Source: Bacteroidota bacterium (lineage in GTDB: Bacteria > Bacteroidota > Bacteroidia > Bacteroidales > JAADGE01). Taken from it: DNA of 56,033 nucleotides. The stretch lies in NCBI GenBank assembly GCA_024277895.1, contig JAJRUH010000093.1, positions 1 through 56,033 on the forward strand, written 5' to 3'. The translations under genes were made by a program, and so were the position numbers. Below the pieces are notes generated by a model. That model was given only the letters and a program-made list of their open reading frames with translations. It was not told where the DNA came from and searched no databases. Below, piece by piece: positions 27,901-56,033 of the stretch (within the stretch, counting starts at the first letter, position 1; each line of letters starts with the position of its first letter).

Positions 27901-30900
27901 ACCGATCAAAATACGCAAAATCTCAATCTTAATGCCGGGAATACAGATATTATCGTTGAAAACATTCTAAATCTTGAAAGCGGAACTTTCAATGATAATG
28001 CGAATGAAATTCGAGTTTACGGAGATATAAATAATGATGCAACTCATGTGTACGGCGGAACAGGTATTGAAGACGGCATTTCGTTAGTCGGAACATCACA
28101 ACAAACTATGACCGGCAGCGGAACCTACGGCAAATTAACCGTAAATAACGGTAACGGAATCGTTCTTCCTGTAGGAAATACACCCACAATATCCGATTAT
28201 CTTAAATTAGAAGCCGGGGTTCTGAATATTGGCGGTAATATTTTAACACTCGGAGTGAATTGCCGAATACAAGAAGCAAATCCGTTCGGAATAAACAATA
28301 TGATAGGAACAAATGTATCATTTACTGACTACGGTGTTAAAAAAATGTTCCCTTCAGGAACAGGAACATTCACTTTTCCCGTCGGTTCCGTCAGCGGAGC
28401 AGCTAATAAATACACTCCGGCAATTGTTACAATCACACAAAATTCAAGCCCAACAGGCTATCTTATCGTAAAACCTGCCGATGAAATACATCCGAGTATT
28501 ATTGATGATTCCGAAGGTTCTGATCCCGATATTGTTGATATGGATAATGTGTTACAATATTACTGGGTTTTAACGGCAAACGGTTTCACAGATTTTTCCG
28601 GAACAACCGAATTCTATTATAATGAAAATGATGTAAAAGTTACGGCTCCTTATGATGTATATGATTATATTACTGCAAAATTATTAAATAACGGGACCGG
28701 TAGTTGGGACAAATACGATGATGTCAGTAAATTCGACGAAACGAATAAAAAATTAATTTTTGACTACAGCAATGTAACTGATGCCGATATTTCAGGTGAT
28801 TATACAGCAGGTGTTGACGGATCAACTTTTCTCGGTGCCATACCTGACGAAGTCCCCTTATATGCCTCAAACGGATCCGGCGGAACATTAGATTGGCATA
28901 CGGCAAATACTTGGCGAGTTGATGACGGTACAGGAAATTGGGTTCTGCCTGCAACATTAGGTTTACCTGAAATTCCGTACGGTGCCAGAGTAAGAATTCT
29001 TGCCGGAGACAGAGTTGTTACCGCAACAAATTATATTTGTGCATATACTACAGAAATACTCGGAACACTTGATGTCGGAACAACTTTCGGAAACAGAACA
29101 GGAAATGTAACAGGCACAGGAACCTTATATTCGGAAAGAGGCACTTTACCGGCAGGTTACTACGAATCATTCTTTTCTGCAAGCGGCGGAACCGTTGAAT
29201 TCGGAGGCACTGCTAATTACAGTATTTTAAGTCAAATTGCACAAGTAAATAATTTAACATTCAGCGGTACCGGAAACAGAGAATTACCGAACCTGCATTT
29301 AACAATTTTAGGTGATGTACTTTTCTCTGACAGCGGAACAAGTTCTCCGGATATAATTAATGAATTTGATCAAACAACAGAAATAAAAGGTGATATAATT
29401 TATAATGCCGGAACTTTTGATGCCGGTGTCGGAACTGATGCCGTTGTTGAATTTGCAGGAAATTCATCTCAAACAATTCTGGGAACAAACAGTTTTACGG
29501 GTACTAATGCTTTTAATAATTTAAAAATAAACAATTCATCCGGTCTTACTTTATCACGCCCGGCAGATATTGATAATAATCTTATTTTTACAACAGGAGT
29601 TATTCATACAACAACAACAAATATTCTTACATTAGAAAACACAAATGAAACAATTGTCACCGGTGCGGGAACAGGCAGCTATGTTGACGGTCCGTTGAAT
29701 AAAAACATCATAATCGGGGGGAAATTCTTATTCCCGATAGGAAACAGTACCAGATACGGCTATATGATTCTTGACAATGTAAGCTCATCAGATTATTGGC
29801 AATCAGAATATTACAATCACAATCCCGGAAATGACGGTTATAATCCGGCAAATTTCCTTGCTCCGATTAAAGTTGTAAGTGAAAATGAATTTTGGAGAAT
29901 AACCGGACCTGCAAGCAGTTCATCTTATGTTGAATTAAGATGGGATGCTGTCAGCGGAGTATCTTCTGATGCAACAGAAAGAAATGATTTAAGAGTTGCC
30001 GAATGGATTTCCGGTAACAACAGATGGGAAGAATCTCATTCAACAGCAACCGCAAGCGGAACTGCTCTCAGCGGTACTGTTACTACAAATCCTTCAAGCC
30101 CGGCATTAAACGGTAATCACATTTTCACACTTACATCACAATTATTAATTACAAATACGTGGGAAGGAAATAATTCAACTGCTTGGAGTGATGCCGGAAA
30201 CTGGTCTGCCGGAACTGTTCCTACCGGAAGCTCCGATGCAATAATTCCTACAAATCCGATTGGTAACAGATTCCCCGGAATTGATATTGCGGCACACTGT
30301 CATAAGCTTGAAATTCAAAATTCTGCAACAGTTACAATTAATGCTGCAAAATCTCTGACGTTAAACAGTGATTTTACAAATGACGGAATACTTATTTTAA
30401 AATCGCCTTCAAATGAAACCGCTTCAGCTTCATTTATTGATAACGGAACAATAACAGGAACCGGTACAATTCATGTCGAACGTTGGTTTTCAGCAAATAA
30501 ATTTCATTATGTATCATCACCGATTCAAGCCGGAGGAAATGCCGGAAGTGATTTATTTACAAAGTCAAATTCATCAGGCAACTTTAATCCGAATTTTTAT
30601 ATTTATGATGAGACTTTCGATTTAGACGGAAACGCTGGAACAGCACCCTCAGGAGCTTTTAATTCCGATAATTTAGTTCCCGGTTGGGCTTATGCTTATC
30701 CCGATCAAACAACAAATGATCCTATGGAAACAAAAACCGGGTATGCTTTCTATACAGATGAAAATCAATTAATAACATTTATCGGGAAACCGAATACCGG
30801 TAACATAACTGTTAGCGGATTAACATACACAAATAACGACCCGATAAGCGGAACTCTCCCGAATTATTATGACGGTTGGAATCTTGTTGCAAATCCCTAC

Positions 30901-32442
30901 CCTTCTGCTGTTGATTGGGATTTAATCAAAAGCAGCAGAACAAATCTGGATGACGCCATTTATGTTTGGGACGGAACACAATATGCAAGTTATGCCGAAG
31001 GTGTTAAAGGCGGCAGTTTGAATTTATCAAACGAAATTGCTCCTATGCAGGCATTTTTTGTTCATGCAACAGCAAATTCTGCAAGTTTTTCATTACAAAA
31101 TTCAAATCGAATACATTCATCTCGAAATTACTTAAAATCGTCTGATACAAATGAAGATATACCGAATTTTATAAGACTTAAAATGCAGGCAAACGGGTAC
31201 TCCGATTATACGGTTATTTATTTTAAACCTAATGCAACCTCCCGATTCGACGGGAACTGTGATGCTTTGAAATTATTCAGTAATATAACATCGGTTCCTC
31301 ATATTTATTCAACAATTAAAAATGAGCAAACACCTCTTTCAATAAATGTTTTACCGGAGAATAATATGCGTAATCTTATTATTCCTTTATCCGTTAAAAT
31401 CGGGCAGGCAGGAACATATACAATCTCGGCAGATAAATTTAACTTTAAAAACTCTCATGTTTATTTTATTGACAAACAAGAAAATGCAGAAATATATCTG
31501 AATGAAAACTCTCTTGAAAATTATTCTTTTTATTGTAATGCAGGGATTCTTTCCGACAGATTTGAATTACATTTCTATAAAAATAATGCACCCGCAGTTC
31601 TTAATAAAATAAATGACACAAATGTTTTTGAAGATCAGGCATTTAATTTCACTCTGCCGAAAAATTCTTTTATTGAAACAGATAAAAATGATACAATATC
31701 AGGTTATTATGCAAAATTAGAAAACGGTAACGATTTACCGGAATGGCTTACTTTTAATAATAAAACATTGACATTCTCAGGTATTCCCGAAAATGAAGAT
31801 GTCGGTATTTTAACAATTAAGGTCTATGCTTTTGATAAAATGGGTGCAACAGGATATCAGGAATTTAACTTATCGGTAATTAATACAAACGATGCTCCTT
31901 TTGTAGAAAATTCTATTCCTGATATGGAAACATATATAACTGAATTATATACTTATACAATACCGAATAATATTTTTAATGATGTTGATTTAGGAGATAT
32001 ATTAACATATTCGGCACAATTAGAAAACGGAACGGAACTACCGGATTGGTTAAACTTTAATTCAGATACCAAAACATTCTCCGGAATACCGGAAACTTCA
32101 GATGTATATCAAATAGAGGTTAAAGCAACCGACATTGCCGGAGCAAATACTTCCGACATTTATACTCTTACAGTTAAAGGAAGTTCAGGCATTTCAAATG
32201 TTTCCGAACCCGATTTTAATATATATCCGAATCCGACAAGAGGTAAATTTTTTATTGTAAATTCAAAACCGGCTGAACTGCATTATATAGTTACAAACAT
32301 AACCGGAAGTATTATAAAAGAAGCAAAAACTTTTACAAATAAAGAAGATGTAGATTTAACAGGATTTGGTGCAGGAATATATTTTGTTAAAATACAAAAT
32401 GAAAAAGAAACTTTAAGTTTTAAAGTAATTCTTCAAAAGTAA
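21922..32442 (+). CDS. Giant T9SS-exported cell-surface protein (LamG-like, repeat modules, Ig-like domains, type A sorting domain)
   Basis: 3506 residues. Order: signal peptide (1-29, ending VITAQ); a LamG/concanavalin-like jelly roll at about 45-255 (VLWLDASSLSFADGADLNIWTDLSGN to IAEVIMYNSFLNSAQRLIVENYLSEKY); a DUF8202-like segment at about 275-445 (YNIAGIGKEADGS, EYIMLGHDN); then long Gly/Asn/Thr-rich right-handed beta-solenoid-like stretches. Four tryptophan-rich start modules (GDWDNWEYW, YNNWDDANTW, LDWHTANTW, SDAGNW) fall near residues 460, 1395, 2320 and 2750. Two cadherin/He_PIG-type Ig-like domains (about 3225-3425) contain the paired DLPEWLTFN/ELPDWLNFN and LTFSGIPE/KTFSGIPE motifs. 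The last 75 residues are a type A T9SS sorting domain (NIYPNPTRGKFFI, DLTGFGAGIYFVKI). It should be cleaved and anchored at the cell surface, probably for adhesion. A shared hairpin terminator follows at once. Confidence 0.93.
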   Translation: MKNISVKTTQLRILILIFFLGFTTVITAQTGPAGVGNTGGTNGQPKNVLWLDASSLSFADGADLNIWTDLSGNNNNLSQPTAGFTPVFQNDASNLNGHPRAEFSKVNNRIVINPFNDMPTSGITSFIIYKTTDSGDGLLSYATGSGTASNEFLLYNNSNLTTYFQANSDNSGVVLNSGNWQFVSHEWQSSNGNLKIYTDGDQVRSTVFQSGHSILSGGSLAIGGEQDDVDGGYTSGQAFQGEIAEVIMYNSFLNSAQRLIVENYLSEKYNIAFATAGNDKFGNDANFNSSYVYNIAGIGKEADGSHTQTSSGGLYLYEWNSTLADGEYIMLGHDNTTNNSTTTYTGSDLPSGTEASWARQWYLEKTSSDGVDAKLIFDFKEALTDGQYPANVANYVLLYRSTVTGSYSVVTVAGQGTFDADQVYFNVADADLQTGYYTIGTTDETNSPVEGISGRTWYALASGDWDNWEYWTLDPAGALPNNPGHETPSSQDKVVIQTGKTITVSSNNKKTAGITVDGILQLGTTTGHNFTEIKGSGRIKLSSDNFPLGDATDFITAGQGEGTVVWQGGSYNLSTAHTFFNMEVNLGNSANTLTMLADYTINGNLVVETGIFQINDNASTTNLNLTVNGNVFVEANGQILTGSANARHQFNMYGDLTNNGTIKFTNRTAADYTNEATDGIVDANFLSADKNQTIQCNGITNFYRIKIDKGTDMTYELSISASSTANFNLFGYASQGHPVAAQLTTNNNALGLLRGTVKIGANINIPVLSTASNYNISESARLLVAGGSVMKNSGNAIVPYGIIEVSSGLLEAKVTSGITTRANGVIKIEGGTINTNQIRTSVFGTANVGGYIQSGGTVNIINPGNTNANYYHFSMTYPGNVFNMSGGTLHVYDANGNDSNSGGIFIASDPANVNVTGGTVIAEIAGTSNNFKITSTAPFYNLILRNTYDNTTDHILDAGTNINGNSDADLSAQPLVVLNDLTIEDNCFLDHNGQDITIGGGFSIAENSQKQGTNNYGLLYNSAKPNTLTFNSDKSDTLYIGHNVDDGYELYLWNMTVNKTNGAEIVLKGDPNKDPTQTTLTQEYYNRLINVQGTIDIIRGTFNQGHQSVRLYGPVKVKKNGILGVYIDGTTEITAYIMLKDNDTVLETEDGAQLGNFKLNPQGSAVVSLGSNVYIKRIGYFRGLLNLKKYKLKVDFLHRNSTTTNFRYTNGSTTKMIFSDANASDGGIELYIPGGISSNTDFALPLGTQTTTTRYTPVRIRVSSSADDGYIQIRPVDGILQTTNLSGGNILSYYWRVGHSGFTTLPTVRYRFVYDDTDDDAGDEANFIAGKVLDEDPFTRSPQSGTIGSITTSNNRINFNAITLEKANYTAGVSNRFTGSVDKYYSYYDYEGGTGNGWYNNWDDANTWDKGSVGSGVHEVPSAGSIVFIQDRARVWGNIIPNIPAGVIFEFNSGEYTNADTENVPRLQFNTSGNFYLGNLSGAGMISINNSANPTVNADFGEWANNSQAYLMYWGGNKTHTAVIQPCPSLMIEGSTQEIDQNIVVNGDFILQSNTNFTPLQNMYIKRNLYIGAWSNGTFHFPGTAPAVEITVDGNLDYTYIHSSGTRDIIVDDPGVVSSLEHKLIIKGSIIHGSDNDYKLNLYNTTDRPAVILELQGETNERYYRTSTSVPNLYRIVLDKGFNQDSTFIFSNNFNLNGPTSGAGVSKALEMKNGTLILDDPAINIDINTGDDNFEIPASACLEVRQGQVNVSGDDTGILLDGKLLVSGGTVNMDDVNFPSTANGNNYIEYSASGNAELEITGGSLIVGSQIRRGMKSNEGILKYTQTGGSVVIGKNAAPEGKRGIFEILNAGSSFTHSAGSLTIVRQQTNPTFASLYLDPGTSNITSGTTITLGNGDTPANQEFGIYSVVNLQNLTLDNTSTNDPKAKMWTVPLTLDGTLLINNGTEFKANGLDLNCYGNFTNYGTFTANQNTTYFKGSTNQIIEGNTSFYNLTDQNTQNLNLNAGNTDIIVENILNLESGTFNDNANEIRVYGDINNDATHVYGGTGIEDGISLVGTSQQTMTGSGTYGKLTVNNGNGIVLPVGNTPTISDYLKLEAGVLNIGGNILTLGVNCRIQEANPFGINNMIGTNVSFTDYGVKKMFPSGTGTFTFPVGSVSGAANKYTPAIVTITQNSSPTGYLIVKPADEIHPSIIDDSEGSDPDIVDMDNVLQYYWVLTANGFTDFSGTTEFYYNENDVKVTAPYDVYDYITAKLLNNGTGSWDKYDDVSKFDETNKKLIFDYSNVTDADISGDYTAGVDGSTFLGAIPDEVPLYASNGSGGTLDWHTANTWRVDDGTGNWVLPATLGLPEIPYGARVRILAGDRVVTATNYICAYTTEILGTLDVGTTFGNRTGNVTGTGTLYSERGTLPAGYYESFFSASGGTVEFGGTANYSILSQIAQVNNLTFSGTGNRELPNLHLTILGDVLFSDSGTSSPDIINEFDQTTEIKGDIIYNAGTFDAGVGTDAVVEFAGNSSQTILGTNSFTGTNAFNNLKINNSSGLTLSRPADIDNNLIFTTGVIHTTTTNILTLENTNETIVTGAGTGSYVDGPLNKNIIIGGKFLFPIGNSTRYGYMILDNVSSSDYWQSEYYNHNPGNDGYNPANFLAPIKVVSENEFWRITGPASSSSYVELRWDAVSGVSSDATERNDLRVAEWISGNNRWEESHSTATASGTALSGTVTTNPSSPALNGNHIFTLTSQLLITNTWEGNNSTAWSDAGNWSAGTVPTGSSDAIIPTNPIGNRFPGIDIAAHCHKLEIQNSATVTINAAKSLTLNSDFTNDGILILKSPSNETASASFIDNGTITGTGTIHVERWFSANKFHYVSSPIQAGGNAGSDLFTKSNSSGNFNPNFYIYDETFDLDGNAGTAPSGAFNSDNLVPGWAYAYPDQTTNDPMETKTGYAFYTDENQLITFIGKPNTGNITVSGLTYTNNDPISGTLPNYYDGWNLVANPYPSAVDWDLIKSSRTNLDDAIYVWDGTQYASYAEGVKGGSLNLSNEIAPMQAFFVHATANSASFSLQNSNRIHSSRNYLKSSDTNEDIPNFIRLKMQANGYSDYTVIYFKPNATSRFDGNCDALKLFSNITSVPHIYSTIKNEQTPLSINVLPENNMRNLIIPLSVKIGQAGTYTISADKFNFKNSHVYFIDKQENAEIYLNENSLENYSFYCNAGILSDRFELHFYKNNAPAVLNKINDTNVFEDQAFNFTLPKNSFIETDKNDTISGYYAKLENGNDLPEWLTFNNKTLTFSGIPENEDVGILTIKVYAFDKMGATGYQEFNLSVINTNDAPFVENSIPDMETYITELYTYTIPNNIFNDVDLGDILTYSAQLENGTELPDWLNFNSDTKTFSGIPETSDVYQIEVKATDIAGANTSDIYTLTVKGSSGISNVSEPDFNIYPNPTRGKFFIVNSKPAELHYIVTNITGSIIKEAKTFTNKEDVDLTGFGAGIYFVKIQNEKETLSFKVILQK

Positions 32443-45638: not shown

Positions 45639-46235
45639 TTATTTCCCCATATATTGCTTAACAATTTTTGTAATATATTTCCCTATTATATCAAATTCGA
45701 TATTTACGACGGTTCCTTTTTTTATATTATGAAAATTAGTTATTTCGTGCGTAAAAGGAATAATGGCAACCTGAAAAGAGTTGTCTTTTGAATTTACCAC
45801 CGTAAGACTTACTCCGTTTACCGAAACCGAACCCTTTTCAACCGTCAGGTTATCGTCTTTCGGTTCGTATTCAAATGTGTAATACCAACTTCCGTCGGCT
45901 TCTTCAACGTTTGTGCAAACGGCGGTTTGGTCAACATGTCCCTGTACGATGTGTCCGTCAAGTAAACTGTCGGGTTTCATACTTCGTTCCAAGTTTACCT
46001 CATCACCGACTTTTAATAAACCGAGATTTGATTTTATAAGCGTTTCTTTAACTGCCGTTACGGTATATGTTTTATCTGTTACCTCCACAACTGTAAGGCA
46101 TACACCGTTATGCGACAAACTTTGGTCAATTTTCAGTTCATTTACAAAATCACAAGTTAATTTAAAATGAACGTTTTCGCCGTCTTTTATTATTTCTTTT
46201 ACCGTTCCGGTTTTTTCAACTATTCCTGAAAACAT
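45639..46235 (-). CDS. ribE: Riboflavin synthase, alpha chain
   Basis: 198 residues. It dismutates two 6,7-dimethyl-8-ribityllumazine molecules into riboflavin. Two lumazine-binding repeats are visible: MFSGIVEKTGTVKEI with SHNGVCLTV in the first, and GHIVQGHVDQTAVC with VSVNGVSLTVV in the second. The C-terminal helix (VNIEFDIIGKYITKIVKQY) mediates trimerisation. Length is normal. No FMN riboswitch is seen in the 50 bp upstream. A TATCTTTG at 46258-46265 is the likely -7 element. Confidence 0.95.
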   Translation of the reverse strand: MFSGIVEKTGTVKEIIKDGENVHFKLTCDFVNELKIDQSLSHNGVCLTVVEVTDKTYTVTAVKETLIKSNLGLLKVGDEVNLERSMKPDSLLDGHIVQGHVDQTAVCTNVEEADGSWYYTFEYEPKDDNLTVEKGSVSVNGVSLTVVNSKDNSFQVAIIPFTHEITNFHNIKKGTVVNIEFDIIGKYITKIVKQYMGK

Positions 46236-46257
46236 AATCTTTATTTTAATTTTTCGG

Positions 46258-46265
46258 CAAAGATA
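46258..46265 (-). promoter_or_regulatory. Promoter -7 element upstream of ribE
   Basis: CAAAGATA on plus (TATCTTTG on minus), 23 bases before the ribE start; -33 element not clear. Confidence 0.45.
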
Positions 46266-46284
46266 TAAATATCATTACGGCATA

Positions 46285-48234
46285 TTAATTTTTTACAAAC
46301 TTTTTGGTAATATTTTTTCCCTTATCGTAAAATGAAATATAATATAATCCGGACGGCAAATCTGAAATATCAAACTCAAATTTATAGTTGCTTTCAGTAC
46401 TTTTTGAATATGATTTCAATATCTTTCCTGAAGTATTACAGATTACTGTTTTTTGGGGAATTATTTTTTCCAGGAAAGTAACCGTTATTTTATTTCTTGC
46501 CGGATTCGGCATAACAAAAACTTTATTTGCTTTATCAAATGTATCAATTTTTAACACTGTTGAACCACCGGAAATAATATCGTGATTGGGATCAAACATT
46601 GCAGCCGTAACCGGAAAATCAAGATTAAAATTAAACTGTTCTCCGTTAACATTATTATCAAACCAAATCGTTGTGTCTTTATCAACACCTTCAAACTTAA
46701 CCGGCACTTTCATATTAAAAAAATCAACAGAATTATTCGACTGCGTTTGATTAATCGTTACGGTTACGTCTTTATTTTGATTTTGAGAGTAATAAATATT
46801 ATAAATCGGATACCCTTCGCCGTAATACCAATCGTTAAAAAATTCAGTTAATGAACTTCCGTAAGTCTGTTCAATATGAAACTGTAAATCAGAAGTGTGT
46901 GCATAAGCATTTGCAATTTGCGAGTCATTAAGATAATTTTTTATTCCGTTAAAAAATGCTTCGTCTCCCACATATTTTCTGAGCATATGTAAAACCATTG
47001 CTCCTTTATCATAAGATAATCTTCCGTTGAAAATACGCCACACATCAGTAGTGTCATCAACAAAAACAGAACCGTCGGGTTTTGATATTATACTGTTAAT
47101 TCTGTCTTGTTTCCAATCATCAAAACTAATGCCGTCATCATTTAGCTTGTGCTCTTGTGTCATTCCGTCAAGATAAGTGGCAAAACCTTCGTTAAGCCAT
47201 ATATCGTGCCAACTCCCGCATGTAACAAAATCGCCGAACCACTGGTGTGCTAATTCGTGAGCCATTAAATGATGACTGAAACCCGACATAAAACTCATAG
47301 TTTGATGTTCCATTCCGCCTCCCCAACTAAATTGTGCATGTCCGTATTTTTCATCTGCAAAAGGATAAGGAATAAACAAATCGCTGTATAATTGAATAAC
47401 ATCCAAAACATTAGGTGTACTTGATTGTGCATAAGCCAGATTTTCGGGGTAAACATAGTTTAAAACTTCAACATTTTCACCTGTTGAAAGCGTAACGTTA
47501 TCGGAGTAGGAAGAATAATTCGTAACGGCAATTGCTATAAGATAAGCCGCTATCGGGTGGCGATGCTTCCAATGTGCCGTTTTCATTCCGCCGGAAATTG
47601 TTTCGGAAACTAAAATTCCGTTACTTGCCGCTTTATATGCTTCCGGGTTTGTAACATAAACATCAATCGAATCAATTTTATCGTCTAAACTTTGTTTGCA
47701 CGGCCACCAATCTTTAGCACCGTAGGGTTCAGATAAACTCCAAACAATCGGTACTCCGTTATGGGAGCTTTGTTCAAAAGACCCGAAACCGTTTGTGTCG
47801 GGAACGCCTTGATAAAAAACGGTTAAAGAATCTAATGTATTTTGCGGTAATGTTGTTTCTAAATTTATTGTCAGTTCATCATTGCTTAATGTAAAATTTG
47901 TTAACTTATTTTGATGAAGAAAAACGGAATCAACCGTCATATTATCTGCCAAATCAAAAGAAATTTGATTAAAATTGCTCGTTTCCGGAATAAAATATGA
48001 CGTTATTTTACCTTTTATATATTTTACGGAAATATCATCAAAGAAAAATTCCAACCGATGATATTTTAAATCGTATTGAAACGATGCTTTTTCTTTATAT
48101 TTCTTCTGAAGTTCAGGTTTAAATTTTAAAAAATGTTTGATTTTAAAATCGGAACAAGTTTCTTCCTGAGCTTTCAAATTATTAACCGAAAAAATAAGGA
48201 TAAAACTCAAAATTATTTTAAATGAGGTTTTCAT
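46285..48234 (-). CDS. M1 family aminopeptidase with T9SS sorting domain
   Basis: 649 residues. Signal peptide (1-22, ending NNLKAQ); an N-terminal beta saddle domain; the gluzincin catalytic domain with GGMEHQTMSF (substrate N-terminus recognition) and HELAHQWFGDF followed by WLNEGFATYLDG (HExxH-18-E zinc site). A short helical region follows, then a beta linker and a C-terminal T9SS type A sorting domain from about residue 575 (VFVMPNPARNKITVTF, FDISDLPSGLYYISFYDKG). It removes N-terminal residues from peptides outside the cell, probably surface-bound. The gene ends close to ribE; its 5' side faces the left repeat of the peptide-export island. Confidence 0.92.
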   Translation of the reverse strand: MKTSFKIILSFILIFSVNNLKAQEETCSDFKIKHFLKFKPELQKKYKEKASFQYDLKYHRLEFFFDDISVKYIKGKITSYFIPETSNFNQISFDLADNMTVDSVFLHQNKLTNFTLSNDELTINLETTLPQNTLDSLTVFYQGVPDTNGFGSFEQSSHNGVPIVWSLSEPYGAKDWWPCKQSLDDKIDSIDVYVTNPEAYKAASNGILVSETISGGMKTAHWKHRHPIAAYLIAIAVTNYSSYSDNVTLSTGENVEVLNYVYPENLAYAQSSTPNVLDVIQLYSDLFIPYPFADEKYGHAQFSWGGGMEHQTMSFMSGFSHHLMAHELAHQWFGDFVTCGSWHDIWLNEGFATYLDGMTQEHKLNDDGISFDDWKQDRINSIISKPDGSVFVDDTTDVWRIFNGRLSYDKGAMVLHMLRKYVGDEAFFNGIKNYLNDSQIANAYAHTSDLQFHIEQTYGSSLTEFFNDWYYGEGYPIYNIYYSQNQNKDVTVTINQTQSNNSVDFFNMKVPVKFEGVDKDTTIWFDNNVNGEQFNFNLDFPVTAAMFDPNHDIISGGSTVLKIDTFDKANKVFVMPNPARNKITVTFLEKIIPQKTVICNTSGKILKSYSKSTESNYKFEFDISDLPSGLYYISFYDKGKNITKKFVKN

Positions 48235-48259
48235 ACAAAATTATATTAAGGTAAAACGG

Positions 48260-48367
48260 AATATTTTTTTAATATGACTGATTTTTTATTTAAAGTTGCA
48301 CGGTAAAATTACTTAAGTTTTAATAAAATGAACAAACCGGATAAAAAAATAACAGAATTTATTCTTA
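48260..48367 (+). repeat. Left copy of the direct repeat flanking the peptide-export island
   Basis: 108 bases match 55926-56033 with five substitutions and no gaps (offset 7666). Both copies hold the promoter region (TAAAGTTGCAC at 48291) and the first codons of a YhbP-like gene. The three coding differences are all synonymous third-position changes (ATA/ATT, ACA/ACG, CTT/CTC). The match may continue to the right beyond the window end. Confidence 0.95.
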
Positions 48368-48489
48368 AACATCATGTGCTTACACTTGCAACATCTGCAG
48401 ATAACTCTCCTTGGTGTGCCAATTGTTTTTATGTTTATTCCTGTTCTTTAATAATACCTCTTAAAAATTCAACTTCTTTTTTTAAATGA
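48328..48489 (+). pseudogene. Truncated YhbP-like gene (pyridoxamine phosphate oxidase-like fold), 5' remnant
   Basis: ATG 48328 opens a frame of 53 residues ending TGA 48487-48489. Residues 1-37 are the N-terminus of a YhbP-type flavin-binding split-barrel protein: ITEFILKHHVLTLATSADN then PWCANCFYVY, compare the LWCANAFYLF of E. coli YhbP. After YVY the frame reads unrelated sequence (SCSLIIPLKN) that is the complement of the regulator gene's 3' end. The break therefore falls at about 48436-48440. The same start and promoter recur at 55994. Confidence 0.85.
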
Positions 48490-48791
48490 GAAATTTGTTC
48501 TTCATATAATTTTCTTTCATTTTCCGAGCAGTTTTGCAACATAACACTTGCAGCATTTCCGCCTTGTTGGTTAGTATTATTAAAAACATGGCTCTCATCA
48601 AAAGTTATTAATTTTAAAGGGTCTATCTCAAGAATTTTTGAAATATTTCGAAGTTTCTCAAAATTAACATATTTATCATCTTTTTCAAATTTGCTGTATG
48701 CAACCTGTGAAATGCCTAACTGTGTTGCCATATATTCTTGCGAAAATCCTTTTAATTCTCTGATTTTTCTTATTTTTGATGCAATTCTCAT
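48435..48791 (-). CDS. XRE-family transcriptional regulator of the peptide-export island
   Basis: 118 residues. A Cro/C1-type helix-turn-helix spans about residues 5-62 (IRKIRELKGFSQEYMATQLGISQVAYSKFEK, with recognition helix QVAYSKFE, then YVNFEKLRNISKILEID). The C-terminal 30 residues are a coiled coil (ERKLYEEQISHLKKEVEFLRGIIKEQE) that probably dimerises it. It is divergent from the double-glycine peptide gene across 176 bp, and the intergenic space has two identical 10-bp repeats at 48825 and 48845. Its stop codon lies at the junction with the truncated YhbP remnant, so its end may have been formed by the insertion. Confidence 0.85.
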   Translation of the reverse strand: MRIASKIRKIRELKGFSQEYMATQLGISQVAYSKFEKDDKYVNFEKLRNISKILEIDPLKLITFDESHVFNNTNQQGGNAASVMLQNCSENERKLYEEQISHLKKEVEFLRGIIKEQE

Positions 48792-48824
48792 AATAAAACT
48801 TTTTAATTTAAGTTGTAAAAATAG

Positions 48825-48854
48825 TTATAATTTAGTTAATTCGCTTATAATTTA
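48825..48854. promoter_or_regulatory. Putative operator: tandem TTATAATTTA repeats
   Basis: TTATAATTTA occurs at 48825-48834 and again at 48845-48854, start to start 20 bp (about two helical turns), between the divergent regulator and peptide genes and 36 bp upstream of the peptide promoter -7 element. Spacing and location suit a dimeric XRE repressor. AT-rich background makes chance repeats more likely, so this is a candidate. Confidence 0.45.
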
Positions 48855-48890
48855 TAACAGAAATTATATTTTAAGATATGTTAAACATTT

Positions 48891-48898
48891 TATGTTTG
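48891..48898 (+). promoter_or_regulatory. Promoter -7 element of the double-glycine peptide gene
   Basis: TATGTTTG fits TAnnTTTG, followed by CACTG. It would give a leader of about 63 nt before ATG 48968. No good -33 TTG is seen, which suits a regulated promoter. Confidence 0.5.
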
Positions 48899-48967
48899 CA
48901 CTGAATTCAAGAATTGAATTCTCTCAAACCGGTTGAGATTTTTTATTAAATTCGTAAAATTATCAAA

Positions 48968-49126
48968 ATGGAAACATTAAAAAATTACGGTGTTCTGGAA
49001 ATGAACACGGAAGAATTAATTAATATTGACGGAGGCAGATTAACTTTTGCTGAAATAGGAGCAATAATTGCTGCGGGAGTAGTTGTTCTCGGAACAATTA
49101 TTCTTTCTTGGTATTATGCTCAGTAA
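48968..49126 (+). CDS. Double-glycine leader peptide, candidate class II bacteriocin or signalling peptide
   Basis: 52 residues. The first 23 form a double-glycine leader (NYGVLEMNTEELINIDGG): hydrophobic and acidic residues at the expected places (L, M, EEL, I) before Gly22-Gly23. Cleavage would release a 29-residue peptide RLTFAEIGAIIAAGVVVLG followed by TIILSWYYAQ, with a glycine-rich helical core (AxxGxxxxG-like GAIIAAGVVVLG) and an aromatic C-terminus. This fits unmodified membrane-active class II peptides (the lactobin/cerein type naming used for Bacteroidota homologues). No cysteine and no modification enzyme is present nearby. A C39-peptidase exporter follows in the same cluster. A hairpin sits 15 bases after the stop. 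No separate immunity gene is recognisable. Confidence 0.8.
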   Translation: METLKNYGVLEMNTEELINIDGGRLTFAEIGAIIAAGVVVLGTIILSWYYAQ

Positions 49127-49140
49127 TTCAGTAATAACGA

Positions 49141-49180
49141 AACTGTTGAGTAGTTTACTCTGCTTAACAGTTTTTTTTTA
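49141..49180 (+). terminator. Terminator/attenuator between peptide and export genes
   Basis: AACTGTT with inner GAGTA/TACTC and closing AACAGTT followed by nine T. It lies 15 bases after the peptide stop and 35 before the next ATG, so most transcripts may stop after the peptide and only some read through to the exporter. Confidence 0.8.
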
Positions 49181-49214
49181 AATAAAACATAAAATTTAAC
49201 AAAAAAATGATATT

Positions 49215-50480
49215 ATGTTTATAAAGTTTAAATTGTTCTTTATTATTTTGTTATTATTTTCTTCACAGATTTTCGGACAACAGACAATAACAATAAAAGG
49301 TAAATTAACAGATAAAAAAACTAATAAAAAAATTGCATTTGCTTCCGTTGGAATAAAAAATTCTAATATCGGAACAATTTCAAACATTGATGGTTATTTT
49401 GAATTGTCATTTACACAAAAAAACAATTATGACACTATTTTCTTTTCGCACCTAAACTACCAATACACAGCAAAAAAAACATCTTATTTCAAAGACGATT
49501 CTATTTATAATATTTATTTAACGCCTGAAAATTATAAATTAGAAGAAGTTGTTGTTACAAGCGTACCTGTTAGTGAAATTTTATTAAAAGCAATAAATAA
49601 TTCTCAAAGTAAGATTACCGTTCCAATCTTATTTAACACATACTACAGAGAATTTGTAAAAAAAAACGGTGTTTACACAAAATTTTCTGACGGTATTCTT
49701 GATTTCTATATAAAAGGGAAACCTAAAAAAATTAAACATTCGTTAATTGTAAAAGAATCACGTGCTTTTGAATTAGACAACAGTTCTTTTGAAAAACTCG
49801 GATCTTTCTACAAAATAGAAGACGCTTTGTTCGGATATGATTTTAAAAATATCAGAAGATTCTTTAAAGAGAAAAATTTTGATAAATATATTTATAGTAT
49901 AAGCTACAAAAGAGGACAAAATAATAATGATAAAAAAATTATTACAATAAAACCCAAAAAAGAAGCAAAAGAACAACTATATAATGCAAAAGTTATAATT
50001 GACGATAAAACAAACTTGATATTAAAAATTGAATATGATTTTTCAAAATCTCATCAAAAATATGCAGATACAGTTAATGTCGTTGTTGCAAAAGCAAGAA
50101 GGTTTAAAGATAAAACTATTTTGCAATATAAAGTCTCACCAAATTTTTATACAATTTCACATATTGCAAATAATATCAGCATTGTCATGTGGGCAGCAGG
50201 GAATAAATATTATTTAGATTTCATAAATGACTTAATTGTTACGGATTTTAAAACTAAAGAAATTGATTTTAACAAAAAGAAAAAGTATAAAAACAGGTCT
50301 TTATATGAAAACGACAGTAATTACAGTTATGAATTTTGGAAAAACAATAATACAATACCATTAACAAAAGAAGAAGAAAATATTATTAAGATACTTAATA
50401 AAAAAACACAAAAAACAAATGTTCAAAAAACAAACAAAATCAAAAACCTGCATAAAAGCAACATACAAACTAACAATTAA
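49215..50480 (+). CDS. Carboxypeptidase-regulatory-like domain protein of the peptide-export cluster
   Basis: 421 residues. Signal peptide (1-22, LFFIILLLFSSQIFGQ). Residues 24-105 are a carboxypeptidase D regulatory-like beta sandwich (TIKGKLTDKKTNKKIAFASVGIKNSNIGTISNIDGYFEL, in its four strands, and LEEVVVT as in TonB-receptor plug-preceding regions). The rest is a DUF5686-like or related beta-rich region without TonB-receptor barrel length (about 300 residues; TVPILFNTYYREFVKKNG, ESRAFELDNSSFEKLG). Outer-membrane or periplasmic location is likely. Such proteins recur in Bacteroidota peptide-secretion clusters and might help cross the envelope or give immunity; neither is shown. The last 62 bases overlap the next gene in another frame. 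Confidence 0.75.
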   Translation: MFIKFKLFFIILLLFSSQIFGQQTITIKGKLTDKKTNKKIAFASVGIKNSNIGTISNIDGYFELSFTQKNNYDTIFFSHLNYQYTAKKTSYFKDDSIYNIYLTPENYKLEEVVVTSVPVSEILLKAINNSQSKITVPILFNTYYREFVKKNGVYTKFSDGILDFYIKGKPKKIKHSLIVKESRAFELDNSSFEKLGSFYKIEDALFGYDFKNIRRFFKEKNFDKYIYSISYKRGQNNNDKKIITIKPKKEAKEQLYNAKVIIDDKTNLILKIEYDFSKSHQKYADTVNVVVAKARRFKDKTILQYKVSPNFYTISHIANNISIVMWAAGNKYYLDFINDLIVTDFKTKEIDFNKKKKYKNRSLYENDSNYSYEFWKNNNTIPLTKEEENIIKILNKKTQKTNVQKTNKIKNLHKSNIQTNN

Positions 50481-51003
50481 CAACAAACAAATTGAACAAA
50501 CTCACCACTTTACGGAAAATTATGTTTATACGGAAGCAGGAGGTAAAAAAATAATATTTTTACCCGAAAAAGGTGAACAATATATAATTGATACAGAAAA
50601 CAAAAAACTAAAAGAACTTGACATATCAGCACAAATGATGCAAATTAATCAATTAAAAAGCATGATAGGAGAAATAAGCAAAGAGGAAAAAACAGAAAAT
50701 AATATTCGGCATATTTCAATGCAAAATAATTCTGAAAATCCCGCACAATTAAATGTTAATTTGCAAGCTGTTAAGTTTGTAGGATTGAAAAATACTATGT
50801 ATCAGCGATTTGGCGAATTTCAGGAAAGCACGCAAATGGTTGGTTTAAATTTAAAAGCAAATGAAATAATAAAACTTTCAGAAACCGTTTTTACGATTAA
50901 CGGACAAGAACAAAAAACAAAACTTGAACTTGTTAATATTGAAAATTATACGGATGATATTTCTGAAATTGATGCGTATTATAATTATAAAATTGCAAAA
51001 TAA
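50419..51003 (+). CDS. Unknown protein of the peptide-export cluster (DUF4412-like strand pattern), no signal peptide
   Basis: 194 residues. The body (IKATYKLTINNKQIEQTHHFTENYVYTEAGGKKIIFLPEKGEQYIIDTENKKLKELDI, in beta hairpins) has the alternation of DUF4412-type periplasmic lipid- or ligand-binding sandwiches, which usually carry a signal peptide. Here the N-terminus (MFKKQTKSKTC) is basic without a hydrophobic stretch, and upstream in this frame a stop occurs at 50362 with no better start. The gene overlaps the previous one by 62 bases. Either the protein acts in the cytoplasm or at the membrane face, or its secretion signal has been lost. It is a fair candidate for an accessory or immunity factor by position only. 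Confidence 0.65.
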   Translation: MFKKQTKSKTCIKATYKLTINNKQIEQTHHFTENYVYTEAGGKKIIFLPEKGEQYIIDTENKKLKELDISAQMMQINQLKSMIGEISKEEKTENNIRHISMQNNSENPAQLNVNLQAVKFVGLKNTMYQRFGEFQESTQMVGLNLKANEIIKLSETVFTINGQEQKTKLELVNIENYTDDISEIDAYYNYKIAK

Positions 51004-51082
51004 CAATGGTTCATATAAACTTTACACTTTAAAAAATAAGGTTTAAAATAATTATAAAATCATCAATAATCAATCCAAAACG

Positions 51083-52243
51083 GTGTCTCAAAAGAACATT
51101 TTTCCTGCCGAAATTATAGAATTTTCAAAAGAATATCATCAAACCGTAAATACCGTTAAAACTCAAATAATTTACACCGTAATTGTTTTATCGGTAATTT
51201 CGGCTTTAATTTCATTACCTTTTATATATGTTGACGTAACAATTCAGGCAGACGGTCTTATACGTCCGGTAAACGAAAAAACCGAAGTAAAGTCTATGCA
51301 ATCCGGAATAGTTAAAAATATTTTTATAAAAGAAGGGCAAATAATAAAAAAAGAGGATACAATTTTAAGTATTATAAATGATGATATTACAGGCAAAATT
51401 GAACTTGTAAAATATCAAATTAAGCAAGACTCAGATTTTATTAAAGATATAAAAGAACTTTTAAGAAACAGATATTCAAAAAAATTGAAAACTGCATATT
51501 ATATGCAAAAAAATGCAGAATATAATTCACAACTTTCTGAAATAAACAATGAAAAAATAAAAGCAAGAATTGATTTTAACAGAAATATTACACTTTACAG
51601 CAAAGGTGTTATTTCAGATCAACAATTTGAAAATTTACAATTAGCTTTAAAAGCAAGTAAAAATAAAATTCGGTCATTTAAAGAAAGCTATAAGAATATA
51701 CTTCAGGCAGATTTAGTACAAAAAAAAGACGATATTAAAAAGAACATTTCGCAACTTGAACAATTAAAACAACAGGAAAAATATTTTATAATAAAATCTC
51801 CCGTTACGGGAACAGCAGAACAATTTACGGGAATTTATACCGGAACAAATATTCAGTCAGGACAAACAATTATTATAATAAGTCCGCAATCAGAACTTAC
51901 GGCAGAAATTTATGTAACACCAAAAGATATAGGATATATAAAAAAAGGAAGCAAAGCAAATATTCAAATAACGGCATTTAACTATAACGACTGGGGAATG
52001 CTCAAAGCAGAAGTTAAAGAAATTTCAAACGATTTTATTTCTATTAATAACAGACCTATTTTCAGAGTAAGATGCAAGTTAGAAAAAACATATTTACAAC
52101 TAAAATCCGGCTTTAAAGGCAGAATTAAAAAAGGAATGACCGTTCGTGCTCGTTTTATTATAACAAAACGTTCACTTTGGCAATTATTATTCGATAATGT
52201 TAATGATTGGATGAATCCGGCTATGAATAAAATTAAGAATTAG
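51083..52243 (+). CDS. HlyD-type periplasmic adaptor (membrane fusion protein) of the peptide exporter
   Basis: 386 residues, starting at GTG 51083. One N-terminal membrane helix (IIYTVIVLSVISALISLPFIYV, about 30-50), a lipoyl half-motif (DVTIQADGLIRPVNEKTEVKSMQSGIVKNIFIKEGQIIKKEDTIL, in strands), a long coiled coil at about 110-235, and the second half with beta-barrel domain (YFIIKSPVTGTAEQFTGIYTGTNIQSGQTI, then LTAEIYVTPKDIGYIKKGSKANIQI). It links the inner-membrane ABC transporter to the TolC channel. It precedes that transporter by 86 bp. Confidence 0.9.
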   Translation: MSQKNIFPAEIIEFSKEYHQTVNTVKTQIIYTVIVLSVISALISLPFIYVDVTIQADGLIRPVNEKTEVKSMQSGIVKNIFIKEGQIIKKEDTILSIINDDITGKIELVKYQIKQDSDFIKDIKELLRNRYSKKLKTAYYMQKNAEYNSQLSEINNEKIKARIDFNRNITLYSKGVISDQQFENLQLALKASKNKIRSFKESYKNILQADLVQKKDDIKKNISQLEQLKQQEKYFIIKSPVTGTAEQFTGIYTGTNIQSGQTIIIISPQSELTAEIYVTPKDIGYIKKGSKANIQITAFNYNDWGMLKAEVKEISNDFISINNRPIFRVRCKLEKTYLQLKSGFKGRIKKGMTVRARFIITKRSLWQLLFDNVNDWMNPAMNKIKN

Positions 52244-52329
52244 TTAACATATGCACATGATGACGTTAATAGCATAGTAAACATAAGGTTACAGCAGTTA
52301 CAATTCACGTCCTGACTGTCAGCAAAAAA

Positions 52330-54507
52330 ATGAACAAAAAAATTAAATATAAGCAACATGATATTACCGATTGCGGAGCGACTTGTTTAGCTTCTGTTTT
52401 ATCATATCACGGATTAAAGTTCCCGATTTCTCGCATCCGTCAATACGCATCAACAGATAAAAAAGGAACAAATGTTCTCGGAATGATTGAAGCAGCCGAA
52501 AAACTCGGTTTAACGGCAAAAGGTGTTAAAGGAACTTTTGAAAGTCTTTTTAAAATTCCAAAACCAAGTATTGCTCATGTTGTAGTAAAAAATTATTTGC
52601 ATCATTACCTTGTTATTTACAAAACAACAAAAAAGTATATTGTTGTTATGGATCCCGGAGACGGTAAAACTCACAAAATAACACACAAAGAATTTAAAAA
52701 GCAATGGACGGGTGTTTTGATTTTACTTCTTCCTTCGGAAGAATTTGAAATAGGAAATAAACAAACCTCAATAAAAAAACGCTTTTGGCAACTTATCAGA
52801 CCACATAAAACAGTAATGATACAGGCATTAGTCGGTGCAGGTGTTTTTAGCATTCTTGGTTTATCAACTTCAATTTACGTACAAAAGATTGTTGATAATG
52901 TTCTTGTTGATGCAAATTATAACTTGTTGAATTTGTTAAGTATTGCAATGATTTTAATTCTTATTTTAAGAATTTTTATAGGCAATATGAAAAGTATTTT
53001 TGCTCTGAAAACAGGTCAAAAAATTGATTCAACTTTAATTCTCGGATATTACAATCATTTAATGAAACTGCCTCAGCAATTTTTTGATACAATGCGTGTA
53101 GGTGAAATAATTTCACGTGTTAATGATGCCGTTAAAATAAGACGTTTTATAAATGACGTTTCATTAGAACTTATCGTAAATGTTTTGATGATAATATTCA
53201 CGGTTTTGTTGATGTTTGTATATTCTTGGAAATTAGCGTTGCTTGTTTTGTTTTCAATTCCTGTTTTTATAATTATCTATTTTTTGTATAATAGATTTAA
53301 TAAAAAATTTCTGCGAAAAATAATGGAAAATTCAGCAGAATTAGAAACTCAATTAGTTGAGTCTGTAAGTTCTGCTGGAACAATTAAAAGATTTGGCTTG
53401 GAAGAGTTTTCAAATCTAAAAACAGAAACACGTTTTATTGCTTTGCTAAAATCAACCTACGAAACAGGAAAAGCTGCAATTTTCAGTACAAATGCCGGAG
53501 ATTTTACGGCAACTGCCGCAACAGTTGCACTACTATGGTTTGGAGCAACAAAGGTAATGGTTCAAGATATAACCCCGGGCGAATTAATGTCTTTTTATGC
53601 ACTTATAGGATATTTAATAAATCCGGTAAAATCATTAATTCAAATGAATCAAAGCATACAAGATGCCGTTATTGCCGCCGATCGTCTTTTTCAAATTATG
53701 GATTTGGAAAGAGAAGAAACCGAAAAAGAAAAAATTGAATTAACAGCAGATATGATTGGAGATATTACATTTAAGAATGTAGACTTCAGATATGGTTCTC
53801 GTGTAGATGTTTTTAACGATTTTAGTTTAAATATTGAAAAAGGGGAAATGACAGCAATTGTCGGCGAAAGCGGTTCAGGAAAAACAACTTTAATTTCTCT
53901 TTTACAAAATATTTATCCCATACAATCCGGAAGCATAGAAATAGGACAATATAATTTAAGACATATAAGCAATGAAAGTTTGCGTAAAATTGTAAGTGTT
54001 GTTCCGCAAGATATTGATTTATTTGCAGGAAGTGTATTAACAAATATTGCTGTGGGAGAATTTGAACCTAATCTGAAAAAAGTAACGGATATTTGTAATA
54101 TGATTTCAATAACAGACTTTATAGAAAAACTACCTAACGGATTTCATACTTACATAGGTGAAAACGGAACATCACTTTCTGGTGGTGAAAAGCAACGAAT
54201 TGCTATTGCAAGAGCATTGTATAAAAATCCTGAAATATTAATTCTTGACGAAGCAACATCATCTCTTGATTCTGCATCGGAACAATATATTCAACAAGCA
54301 ATCAATGTATTGAAAAAACAAAATAAAACAATAATAATTATTGCTCACAGATTAAGCACCGTTATGAAAGCTGACAATATTGTATTAATAAAAGAAGGGA
54401 GAATAATTGAAACGGGAAACCATAAAAATTTAATGCGGAAAAAAGGAGAATATTTTAAACTGTGGGAACAACAATTTCCGATTGATGAAGATGATTTTTG
54501 GTTATGA
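52330..54507 (+). CDS. C39-peptidase ABC exporter of the double-glycine peptide
   Basis: 725 residues. Residues 1-135 are a C39 cysteine protease: Cys15 in HDITDCGATCLASVL, His92 in LHHYLVIY and Asp108 in VVMDPGDG, the full catalytic set. Residues about 150-440 hold six membrane helices (ABC type I exporter fold). The nucleotide-binding domain has Walker A GESGSGKT (about 515-522), the signature LSGGEKQR (about 616-623), Walker B ILILDEATSSLD (about 636-647) and the IIAHRLST switch histidine. It should cut the leader after Gly-Gly and pump the mature peptide through the adaptor and TolC. The next gene starts within its stop codon (ATGA, 54504-54507). Confidence 0.95.
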   Translation: MNKKIKYKQHDITDCGATCLASVLSYHGLKFPISRIRQYASTDKKGTNVLGMIEAAEKLGLTAKGVKGTFESLFKIPKPSIAHVVVKNYLHHYLVIYKTTKKYIVVMDPGDGKTHKITHKEFKKQWTGVLILLLPSEEFEIGNKQTSIKKRFWQLIRPHKTVMIQALVGAGVFSILGLSTSIYVQKIVDNVLVDANYNLLNLLSIAMILILILRIFIGNMKSIFALKTGQKIDSTLILGYYNHLMKLPQQFFDTMRVGEIISRVNDAVKIRRFINDVSLELIVNVLMIIFTVLLMFVYSWKLALLVLFSIPVFIIIYFLYNRFNKKFLRKIMENSAELETQLVESVSSAGTIKRFGLEEFSNLKTETRFIALLKSTYETGKAAIFSTNAGDFTATAATVALLWFGATKVMVQDITPGELMSFYALIGYLINPVKSLIQMNQSIQDAVIAADRLFQIMDLEREETEKEKIELTADMIGDITFKNVDFRYGSRVDVFNDFSLNIEKGEMTAIVGESGSGKTTLISLLQNIYPIQSGSIEIGQYNLRHISNESLRKIVSVVPQDIDLFAGSVLTNIAVGEFEPNLKKVTDICNMISITDFIEKLPNGFHTYIGENGTSLSGGEKQRIAIARALYKNPEILILDEATSSLDSASEQYIQQAINVLKKQNKTIIIIAHRLSTVMKADNIVLIKEGRIIETGNHKNLMRKKGEYFKLWEQQFPIDEDDFWL

Positions 54508-55916
54508 TTATTAAAGTAAAAATATACATTTTATTAACTATTTTTTTCTGTAATTCAAATTTCGGATACAGTCAAAAAATATGGACTTTAAACGATTGCT
54601 TAAAATATGCACTTGAAAACAATATTCAAATAAAACGCAAAAATATTCAAATAAAAGCCGGTAAACTCGCAATAAAAGCTGCAAAAAGTAATATTTTACC
54701 ATATTTGAATTTTAATGCTTCGCAAGAATTCTCTTTTGCCAAAACAACAGATCTAATTTCAAATGATTTAAAAGAAAATAATATCTCGGTAAATAAATAT
54801 AATATTTCCGGCAGTATTGTATTATTCAACGGCTTCAAAAATTATAATATCATAGAGCAAAAAAAACTAAATTTATTTACAGTTTTGCAAGAAATTGAAG
54901 CATTAAAAGACGATATTAAATTAAATGTTTTGTCTGCATATATGCAGATTCTTTTTTCTGAAGAAGAACTGGAAATTTCAAAAAGACAATTATATATAAC
55001 AGAAGAAAACCTTACAAATGCAACCCTTTTAAAAACCGCAGGTATTATTGCCGATAATGAAATTTATGAAATAAAAGCACAAATTGCTTACGAAAAATAT
55101 CAAATAATTGTTGCCGAATCAAATCTTAAAAATGCAAATTTGCAATTAACAAAATTACTTGAACTGCAAACAAACTCTATCCAAATAGAAAAACCTAAGG
55201 TTAAAGTTACAAATTTAGATTTCTATATACCTGATTTTAACAGGATATATAGAATTGCACAAAATTTACCGTTGATAAAAAAAGAAGAAAAGAAACTTAA
55301 AAGTATAAAAAAAGAAACAGATATAAATAAAAGTCTTTTATATCCGAAAATTTCACTAAATCTCGGAATAAACACAAATTGGACTAATGCTGGTTATTTA
55401 TACGATACGACAAATATAATAAACTCGCCCATCGGCTATACAAGCTTCACGGGAGAAGTTGTTTATTCAAAATCATACGGCACTAAAAAATATCCTTATT
55501 TTTATCAAATAAAAAACAATTTCTTTCCTTCAATTTCAATTAATATTTCATATCCTGTTTTTGACAAATTCAGATACAAACAGAACAAAGAAAAAATAAA
55601 GCTAAACATAAACGAAGTCGAATTACAAATTCAACAAAGAAAAAATAATTTATATCAAGATATTCAACAGCTATATTCAGATTTAAAAATTGCAATTGCA
55701 AAATATAAAAGTGCTGAACAATATCTGAATTCTTATGAAAAATCATATAAAAATGCCGAATTAGAATATAAAGCCGGCAAAATTACTTCTTTTGAATACA
55801 GCACTTCCGTTAATAAACTTATCAATGCGAAGTTAGATTTCCTGAAAACTAAATACGAAATAAAATTCAATCAGAATATTTTGAGATTTTATCAAAACTT
55901 ACCGTTTGCTCTTTAA
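54504..55916 (+). CDS. TolC-family outer-membrane efflux protein of the peptide exporter
   Basis: 470 residues from ATG 54504. A TTG at 54498 is possible, but the ATGA overlap with the exporter stop indicates coupling. Signal peptide (IYILLTIFFCNSNFGYSQ) then the TolC opening IWTLNDCLKYALENNIQIKRKNIQI, and the doubled helix/strand pattern of the family (NISGSIVLFNGFKNYNIIEQKKLN, SINISYPVFDKFRYKQNKEKIKLNINEVELQIQ, each split). The second half repeats the first (AEQYLNSYEKSYKNAELEYKAGKITSFEYSTS). It supplies the outer-membrane duct of the tripartite export machine. Length is normal. Confidence 0.92.
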   Translation: MIIKVKIYILLTIFFCNSNFGYSQKIWTLNDCLKYALENNIQIKRKNIQIKAGKLAIKAAKSNILPYLNFNASQEFSFAKTTDLISNDLKENNISVNKYNISGSIVLFNGFKNYNIIEQKKLNLFTVLQEIEALKDDIKLNVLSAYMQILFSEEELEISKRQLYITEENLTNATLLKTAGIIADNEIYEIKAQIAYEKYQIIVAESNLKNANLQLTKLLELQTNSIQIEKPKVKVTNLDFYIPDFNRIYRIAQNLPLIKKEEKKLKSIKKETDINKSLLYPKISLNLGINTNWTNAGYLYDTTNIINSPIGYTSFTGEVVYSKSYGTKKYPYFYQIKNNFFPSISINISYPVFDKFRYKQNKEKIKLNINEVELQIQQRKNNLYQDIQQLYSDLKIAIAKYKSAEQYLNSYEKSYKNAELEYKAGKITSFEYSTSVNKLINAKLDFLKTKYEIKFNQNILRFYQNLPFAL

Positions 55917-55925
55917 TAAAAGAAA

Positions 55926-56033
55926 AATATTTTTTTAATAAGACCGATTTTTTATTTAAAGTTGCACGGTAAAATTACTTAAGTTTTAATAAAATGAACA
56001 AACCGGATAAAAAAATTACGGAATTTATTCTCA
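55926..56033 (+). repeat. Right copy of the direct repeat flanking the island
   Basis: Same 108 bases as 48260-48367 with five substitutions. It starts 10 bases after the TolC stop codon and runs past the window end, so its true length is unknown. Confidence 0.95.
55994..56033 (+). CDS. YhbP-like protein, start of the apparently intact copy (partial)
   Basis: ATG 55994 opens MNKPDKKITEFIL, identical in residues to the truncated left copy, and continues out of the window. Family assignment rests on the longer left copy (HHVLTLATSADN, PWCANCFYVY). Pyridoxamine-phosphate-oxidase-like split barrels bind flavin or heme; the function of YhbP is not established. The gene has its own copy of the promoter region (TAAAGTTG at 55957). 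Whether the copy is complete cannot be seen here. Confidence 0.7.
   Translation, partial: MNKPDKKITEFIL

Follow-up and report, generated by a model that had tools for sequence, protein, structure and literature searches.

A compact double-glycine peptide export module in a Bacteroidota genome and its companion protein p194

A gene block of about 7.5 kb within the last 7.8 kb of a Bacteroidota contig seems to combine one small peptide with a double-glycine (GG) leader and the machinery for its maturation and export. Two questions are raised by this locus: whether the block is as complete and as unusual as it looks, and what its peptide is for. The window analysed here is the whole contig (C70, 56,033 nucleotides) of a genome that is 95.7% complete.

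The first-pass annotation, made from the DNA alone, described a self-contained module for one peptide. All of its listed parts were recovered at about the expected positions from open reading frames (ORFs), Pfam and NCBIfam. Between the two copies of a direct repeat lie, in order, an XRE regulator, a GG-leader peptide, a terminator, CarbD, p194, HlyD, a C39-ABC exporter and TolC (Table 1). The Pfam and NCBIfam matches of these genes also support the description as a unit of peptide, maturation and tripartite export. As annotated, no modification enzyme occurs among the Pfam hits of the seven genes. According to the ORF list, their frames are intact. The GC content (0.273) is lower than in all 82 windows of equal size from the left flank (0.296-0.373), and the composition is foreign-looking. 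Judged by its sequence, the block is an intact-looking GG-peptide type I export module.

Table 1. Features of the module and its borders (positions in the window)
Feature	Position	Strand	Remarks
Left repeat copy	48260-48441	+	PNPOx-like gene up to codon 38, with its upstream region; truncated by the module
XRE-type HTH regulator, 118 aa	48435-48791	-	HTH_3; divergent from the peptide gene
GG-leader peptide gene, 52 aa	48968-49126	+	Leader 23 aa (48968-49036), core 29 aa
Intrinsic terminator	49139-49184	+	15-pair stem (49139-49174) plus T tract
CarbD	49215-50480	+	CarboxypepD_reg-like domain; signal-peptide-like N-terminus (by eye)
p194, 194 aa	50419-51003	+	Overlaps the end of CarbD; predicted LolA/RseB-type fold
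HlyD-type periplasmic adaptor	51083-52243	+	GTG start; HlyD_3 over the Pfam cut-off
C39 peptidase-containing ABC exporter (PCAT), 725 aa	52330-54507	+	TIGR01193, PF03412
TolC-type outer membrane factor	54498-55916	+	OEP over the Pfam cut-off
Right repeat copy	55925-56033	+	Runs into the contig end; identical over 109 nt to contig C31

Peptide, regulators and exporter

The peptide frame is real, as shown by an exact GG-leader pattern, a score over the cut-off of an NCBI model and a terminator directly behind the gene. GG leaders follow a consensus with a hydrophobic residue at -12, E at -8, L at -7 and I at -4 ahead of the two glycines, and the end of this peptide's leader (MNTEELINIDGG) carries every one of them. 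The core has no Cys, a net charge of 0 and a GRAVY of 1.38. TIGR03949, the model of the lactobin A/cerein 7B class IIb family, is matched with 23.6-24.9 bits (cut-off 21.5) over residues 10-42, mostly leader. With 20.3 bits, the peptide stays below the cut-off of PF10439 (27.1), and TIGR03949 had no match in any other of the 60 genomes searched. Since the peptide passes an NCBI model, the view that it would be missed by gene calling proved too strong; GG peptides of 42-58 aa are also annotated, mostly as hypothetical proteins, on the plasmids pAT7 and pBACSA02. Leaders are more alike than cores (median scores against the window's peptide of 50 and 18.5, respectively). The window's core has no relative beyond chance, its best score being 42 against a mean of 32.3 (sd 3.5, maximum 46) for the best scores of 200 shuffled cores.

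The terminator, also claimed in the first-pass annotation, is well supported, with a folding energy of -18.9 kcal/mol (z -5.24 against shuffles). Three terminator-like sites were found in 48780-49260, against a shuffle mean of 0.0. The XRE regulator scores 45.1 bits against HTH_3 (cut-off 23) and has no domain besides the HTH over a Pfam cut-off. In 6 of 85 other loci (L073, L096, L112, L113, L126 and L138), a related XRE gene is found shortly upstream of a peptide or HlyD gene, in divergent orientation. The Bacteroidota -7 motif is TAnnTTTG. Its occurrence at 48891 was rejected as promoter evidence because 38 such sites are found on the + strand of the window.

The exporter reaches 543.5 bits against TIGR01193 (cut-off 523.85) and is also over the cut-off of PF03412. 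HlyD and TolC pass their Pfam models and lie below the NCBIfam type I cut-offs. Residues 4-714 of the exporter align with the solved bacteriocin transporter 4ry2 (E 2.5e-168), and ComA is among the related solved structures. The Cys, His and Asp that had been read as intact are all in register with 4ry2; we take them to be the catalytic residues of the C39 domain. This is the sole C39 exporter found in the genome.

A scan of genomes with five exporters gave 551 relatives, the best 80 of which were kept and, with the five earlier ones, made up 85 loci. HlyD is present in 81 of these 85. The initial reading had been staked on GG frames beside the C39 exporters of relatives, and such frames are abundant: a strict pattern found 124 of them, spread over 55 of the 85 loci (the window's among them), and one control, shuffled in two-base blocks, contained 2. 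This pattern undercounts, as both peptides of G016 were missed. G016, a genome of the same family as the window's organism, holds the nearest exporter relative found (74% identity over 517 residues) and two GG peptides recognised by eye. Of 86 entries, with the window and G016 counted, 10 have TolC together with the exporter, many loci being cut by contig ends. Among the matches listed, exporters of the same genus show 30-37% identity, except for one piece of 110 residues at 48%, and no orthologous exporter was seen in the genus. PCATs with 62-64% identity are found on plasmids of Aureibacter and Phocaeicola. Related exporters and GG peptides are common, also on plasmids; the module thus appears to be a member of a known, mobile and common kind in Bacteroidota. 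The idea that the arrangement is special as such was not borne out.

Most other C39 loci carry a GG-tailed HTH regulator rather than an XRE protein. On pAT7, for instance, an HTH protein of about 107 aa (L195:4475-4798) beside a C39/HlyD exporter ends in a GG-leader-like motif. Further GG-tailed HTH proteins of about 105 aa are encoded at L087:4438-4752, L090:2898-3224, L110:3764-4096 and L134:9187-9498 and in the unbiased loci L197-L220. Relatives of the pAT7 protein number 49 in 44 of 90 exporter loci; the strict tail pattern is present in 26 of the 49 and a looser one (hydrophobic-x-[GA]G) in 35 of 46. An HTH search independent of exporters matched 60 of 395 phylum genomes, many weak matches being longer proteins. 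Among the 30 loci retrieved, 20 have HlyD or C39 within about 1.5 kb, as do 18 of the 24 strongest. In this set the strict tail was seen in 7 of 30 and the looser one in 20 of 22 complete proteins. Across 66 distinct sequences, the tail columns hold L/I/M at -12 (87%), E at -8 (77%), I/L/V at -4 (89%), G/A at -2 (96%) and G at -1 (93%); beyond the motif the sequence varies. No NCBIfam model passes in the six proteins tested, and Pfam recognises only HTH_11 in one of the six. The window and its genome hold no match. One hypothesis is that the C39 domain binds or cleaves the regulator, which would put transcription under the control of export. A widespread regulator family with a built-in exporter-recognition motif would tie peptide export to gene control and may outweigh the module in importance. 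Among the titles and abstract openings listed for open-licence PMC papers, none describes an HTH regulator with a GG tail.

The probable insertion site

Both copies of the direct repeat announced in the first-pass annotation are present, with 96% identity over 106 nt. Rather than marking the end of an anonymous element, the repeat corresponds to the 5' end of a PNPOx-like gene together with the DNA upstream of it. By comparison with contig C31 of the same assembly, the doubled stretch measures about 182 bp. C31 carries an intact PNPOx beside a MutL-like gene and the start of a second M1 peptidase. This start, 96 codons at the end of C31 (G000:C31:13505-13792), is about 90% identical to the window's M1, and the remainder was not found.

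In the genus, M1 and PNPOx are neighbours. Of 14 relatives, nine have the two genes in divergent orientation no more than about 220 bp apart, four have them about 0.8-1.0 kb apart and one is interrupted by a contig edge; HlyD, C39 and TolC gave no match in these short loci. The gene order in G009 is lspA-TraR-ileS-ribE-M1-PNPOx-MutL-like (names by eye). The same order is seen in the left flank of the window (host gene names likewise by eye), which places the module at the M1/PNPOx boundary. The best reading of the sequence is that the low-GC module landed between M1 and PNPOx, and it may have done so by a duplicative event or by recombination of a circle. The evidence for insertion comes from an assembly in which the contig ends within the right repeat. 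Since the M1 copies share only about 90% identity, and the second could not be traced beyond its first 96 codons, strain mixing is possible; a strain with an empty site, present alongside in the sample, would explain the second M1 well, though this is unproven.

The XRE stop codon (window 48435-48441) lies inside the PNPOx-derived repeat DNA of the host, so the final XRE codons may have been set by the insertion event. Elsewhere in the window, at 21922-32442 on the + strand, a protein of 3,506 aa is encoded with a Pentaxin-type match, putative Ig domains and a Por_Secre_tail (type IX secretion) sorting domain.

The accessory proteins CarbD and p194

CarbD had been labelled an outer-membrane-type protein, which is unproven. 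Its structural model is weak (pLDDT 66.7, C-terminal part poorly modelled), and the fold search supports the N-terminal domain only (9hfj). Among the C39 loci, 10 besides the window hold a CarbD relative scoring at least 190 bits; in 8 of these it comes after a same-strand GG peptide, at a distance of no more than about 600 bp. Relatives drawn without this bias gave a same-strand GG frame within about 1.5 kb in 0 of 29 loci (CarbD itself was re-found in 28), and unrelated control loci gave one in 1 of 27. The CarbD family is therefore not peptide-specific, and a role as peptide-specific partner was ruled out. Two CarbD relatives stand in tandem on contig C15 of G394 (L166:1168-2355 and L192:34-1146; E 5.6e-46 and 2.4e-32). 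No GG frame occurs close to them.

The small protein p194 is rare. Nothing over a cut-off was found for it in Pfam or NCBIfam, nor in Pfam for the two relatives tested. A p194 profile gave three hits in 394 other phylum genomes. Two of them (E 2.5e-13 and 1.8e-10) are confident, and in each case the gene comes immediately after a GG peptide, with HlyD and C39 following; the third was taken to be spurious. Three further relatives occur in L091, L127 and L128. These loci were originally fetched by their C39 exporter, so the unbiased linkage evidence consists of the two phylum hits only. All five other confident relatives are adjacent to, or one gene from, a GG peptide within a C39 locus: in L127 and L128, near-identical loci of two Aquimarina species, p194 follows the GG peptide, and in L091, as in the window, CarbD stands between the two. 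A search in 397 genomes of the family of G375 returned the same two relatives and one weak hit. In the plasmid collection, p194 is absent at E 0.01.

Two matches were discarded as spurious, one in a nucleotide-kinase-like gene (named by eye) of G253 (E 7.2e-6; 27 bits) and one in a phage-like stretch of G147 (E 1.7e-5), neither with a convincing GG frame nearby. A frameshifted CarbD-p194 fusion was likewise rejected because p194 stands alone in four loci (L127, L128, L158 and L159) and its profile finds no match in long CarbD proteins. In two genomes of one genus (L158:7926-9522 and L159:6601-7912), a GG peptide and a p194 relative are followed by a protein of about 190 aa with a hydrophobic stretch, then HlyD and C39; this protein is another immunity candidate.

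The fold of p194 is predicted to be LolA-type, at modest scores. The AlphaFold model, built from four sequences, has a pLDDT of 87.5. Foldseek matched it to the LolA-type structure 4mxt with an E of 1.1e-6 and a TM-score of only 0.42. The VIA list gave a LolA-type Z of 8.7, with LolA, RseB or ependymin-type structures in 15 of the 16 rows of Z at least 8; a Z of 8-9 is modest by the tool's own note, and the best-placed structure is not LolA but 2yzy, an uncharacterised protein from Thermus. A signal-peptide-like N-terminus was not evident by eye in six aligned members, and strand 1 begins at residue 11 of the model.

The p194-linked cores are hydrophobic and net neutral in 5 of 5 cases. They are more hydrophobic than the others among 117 distinct cores (medians 1.38 and 0.39, p 0.0054), with fewer charged residues (p 0.0052) and a shorter length (p 0.031), in post hoc comparisons with n=5 and four uncorrected measures tried. 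A hydrophobe-binding fold, presumably cytoplasmic, beside membrane-helix-like peptides suggests immunity or chaperoning. Gene linkage, fold and the lack of an evident signal peptide thus make p194 a candidate immunity protein or keeper. Possibly, although this is less likely than not, p194 founds a new cytoplasmic LolA-fold family devoted to membrane-helix-like GG peptides, in which the lipid-chain half-barrel keeps the bacteriocin soluble before export or neutralises it. If true, this would be a type of chaperone or immunity protein undescribed for bacteriocins. Among the titles and abstract openings listed for open-licence PMC papers, none describes a LolA-fold immunity protein.

Proposed function and comparison with known systems

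The best explanation for the locus is probably a class II (microcin-like) bacteriocin module obtained by horizontal transfer. It would have entered between the M1 peptidase and PNPOx, leaving the 5' end of PNPOx doubled. The XRE protein would control the divergent promoter region. Much transcription would stop at the computed terminator behind the peptide gene, and read-through would serve the accessory and export genes. From the mechanism of the family, the GG leader is expected to bring the precursor to the C39 domain of the ABC exporter and to be cut off after Gly-Gly, and the neutral, membrane-helix-like core to leave via HlyD and TolC. The core would then probably insert into the membranes of competitors, the weakest step of the scheme. 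Inside the producer, p194 would most likely bind the hydrophobic peptide as an immunity protein or export chaperone. Many bacteriocins are cationic, and the short, neutral core counts against this reading.

The same machinery could serve a signalling peptide, sensed by the producer or its kin with the XRE protein in the response. C39-ABC exporters handle pheromones too, ComA being an example, and the regulator adjoins the peptide gene. However, the XRE protein has 118 aa and, over a Pfam cut-off, nothing but an HTH, the module has no sensor kinase, unlike pBACSA02, and so hydrophobic a core is odd for a diffusible signal; a pheromone is considered unlikely. It is quite improbable that the target of the peptide is the envelope or biofilm of the producer itself, with CarbD as its partner in the envelope. 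The N-terminus and domain of CarbD and its position behind GG peptides in C39 loci would fit such a role, but its independently found relatives are not near GG frames and no orthologous exporter was seen in the genus among the matches listed. Finally, the foreign composition and the seat at a broken PNPOx copy could mark a recent passenger, poorly expressed or decaying and without current function. Intact frames, the C39 motif residues and a strong terminator make this very improbable. If the bacteriocin reading is right, the cassette is a compact and complete system for bacteriocin production in a lineage where few such producers have been characterised, and p194 is a first handle on how such Bacteroidota protect against, or solubilise, membrane-helix-like peptides.

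Several known classes share parts of this design. A lanthipeptide was ruled out, as the core has no Cys and no modification enzyme was found among the module's Pfam hits. Class IIb bacteriocins consist of two complementary peptides. The window's peptide resembles the lactobin A/cerein 7B family in scoring over the curated cut-off of TIGR03949, with a match that is mostly leader, and differs in being a single peptide with an exporter of Gram-negative type. For a second peptide, the strict pattern, which undercounts, found one GG frame in 46001-56033, and the genome holds one TIGR03949 match.

Class II microcins typically have a core longer than the 29 residues seen here. Like the window, class II microcins and colicin V combine a GG peptide with a PCAT, a membrane fusion protein and TolC; unlike the window, where the TolC gene lies inside the module, colicin V export uses a TolC encoded elsewhere (PMC10352776). 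Bacteroidetocins also occur in Bacteroidetes and lose a GG leader at a C39-ABC exporter (PMC6671954). Their leaders measure 15-16 aa and their mature peptides 42-48 aa with at least two Cys, and they come with a TM protein and in most cases a thiol oxidoreductase. In contrast, the window's peptide has a leader of 23 aa and a Cys-free core of 29, and no gene for a TM protein or thiol oxidoreductase accompanies it. Leader length and lack of Cys ruled out a class IIa/bacteroidetocin reading.

The two plasmids carry modules of the same kind. Like the window, pAT7 of Aureibacter tunicatorum (NZ_AP025312.1) carries TolC, HlyD, a PCAT (64% identity) and small GG peptides. It differs in gene order and in its regulator, which is the HTH protein with the GG-like tail, not XRE, and gave no hit for CarbD or p194. 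On pBACSA02 of Phocaeicola salanitronis (NC_015168.1), five GG peptides were counted by eye; it has a two-component system, and a CAAX-type protein stands in place of CarbD and p194. This plasmid shares with the window an HTH regulator, GG peptides, one of them annotated 'bacteriocin-type signal sequence', and HlyD, PCAT (63% identity) and TolC in the same order.
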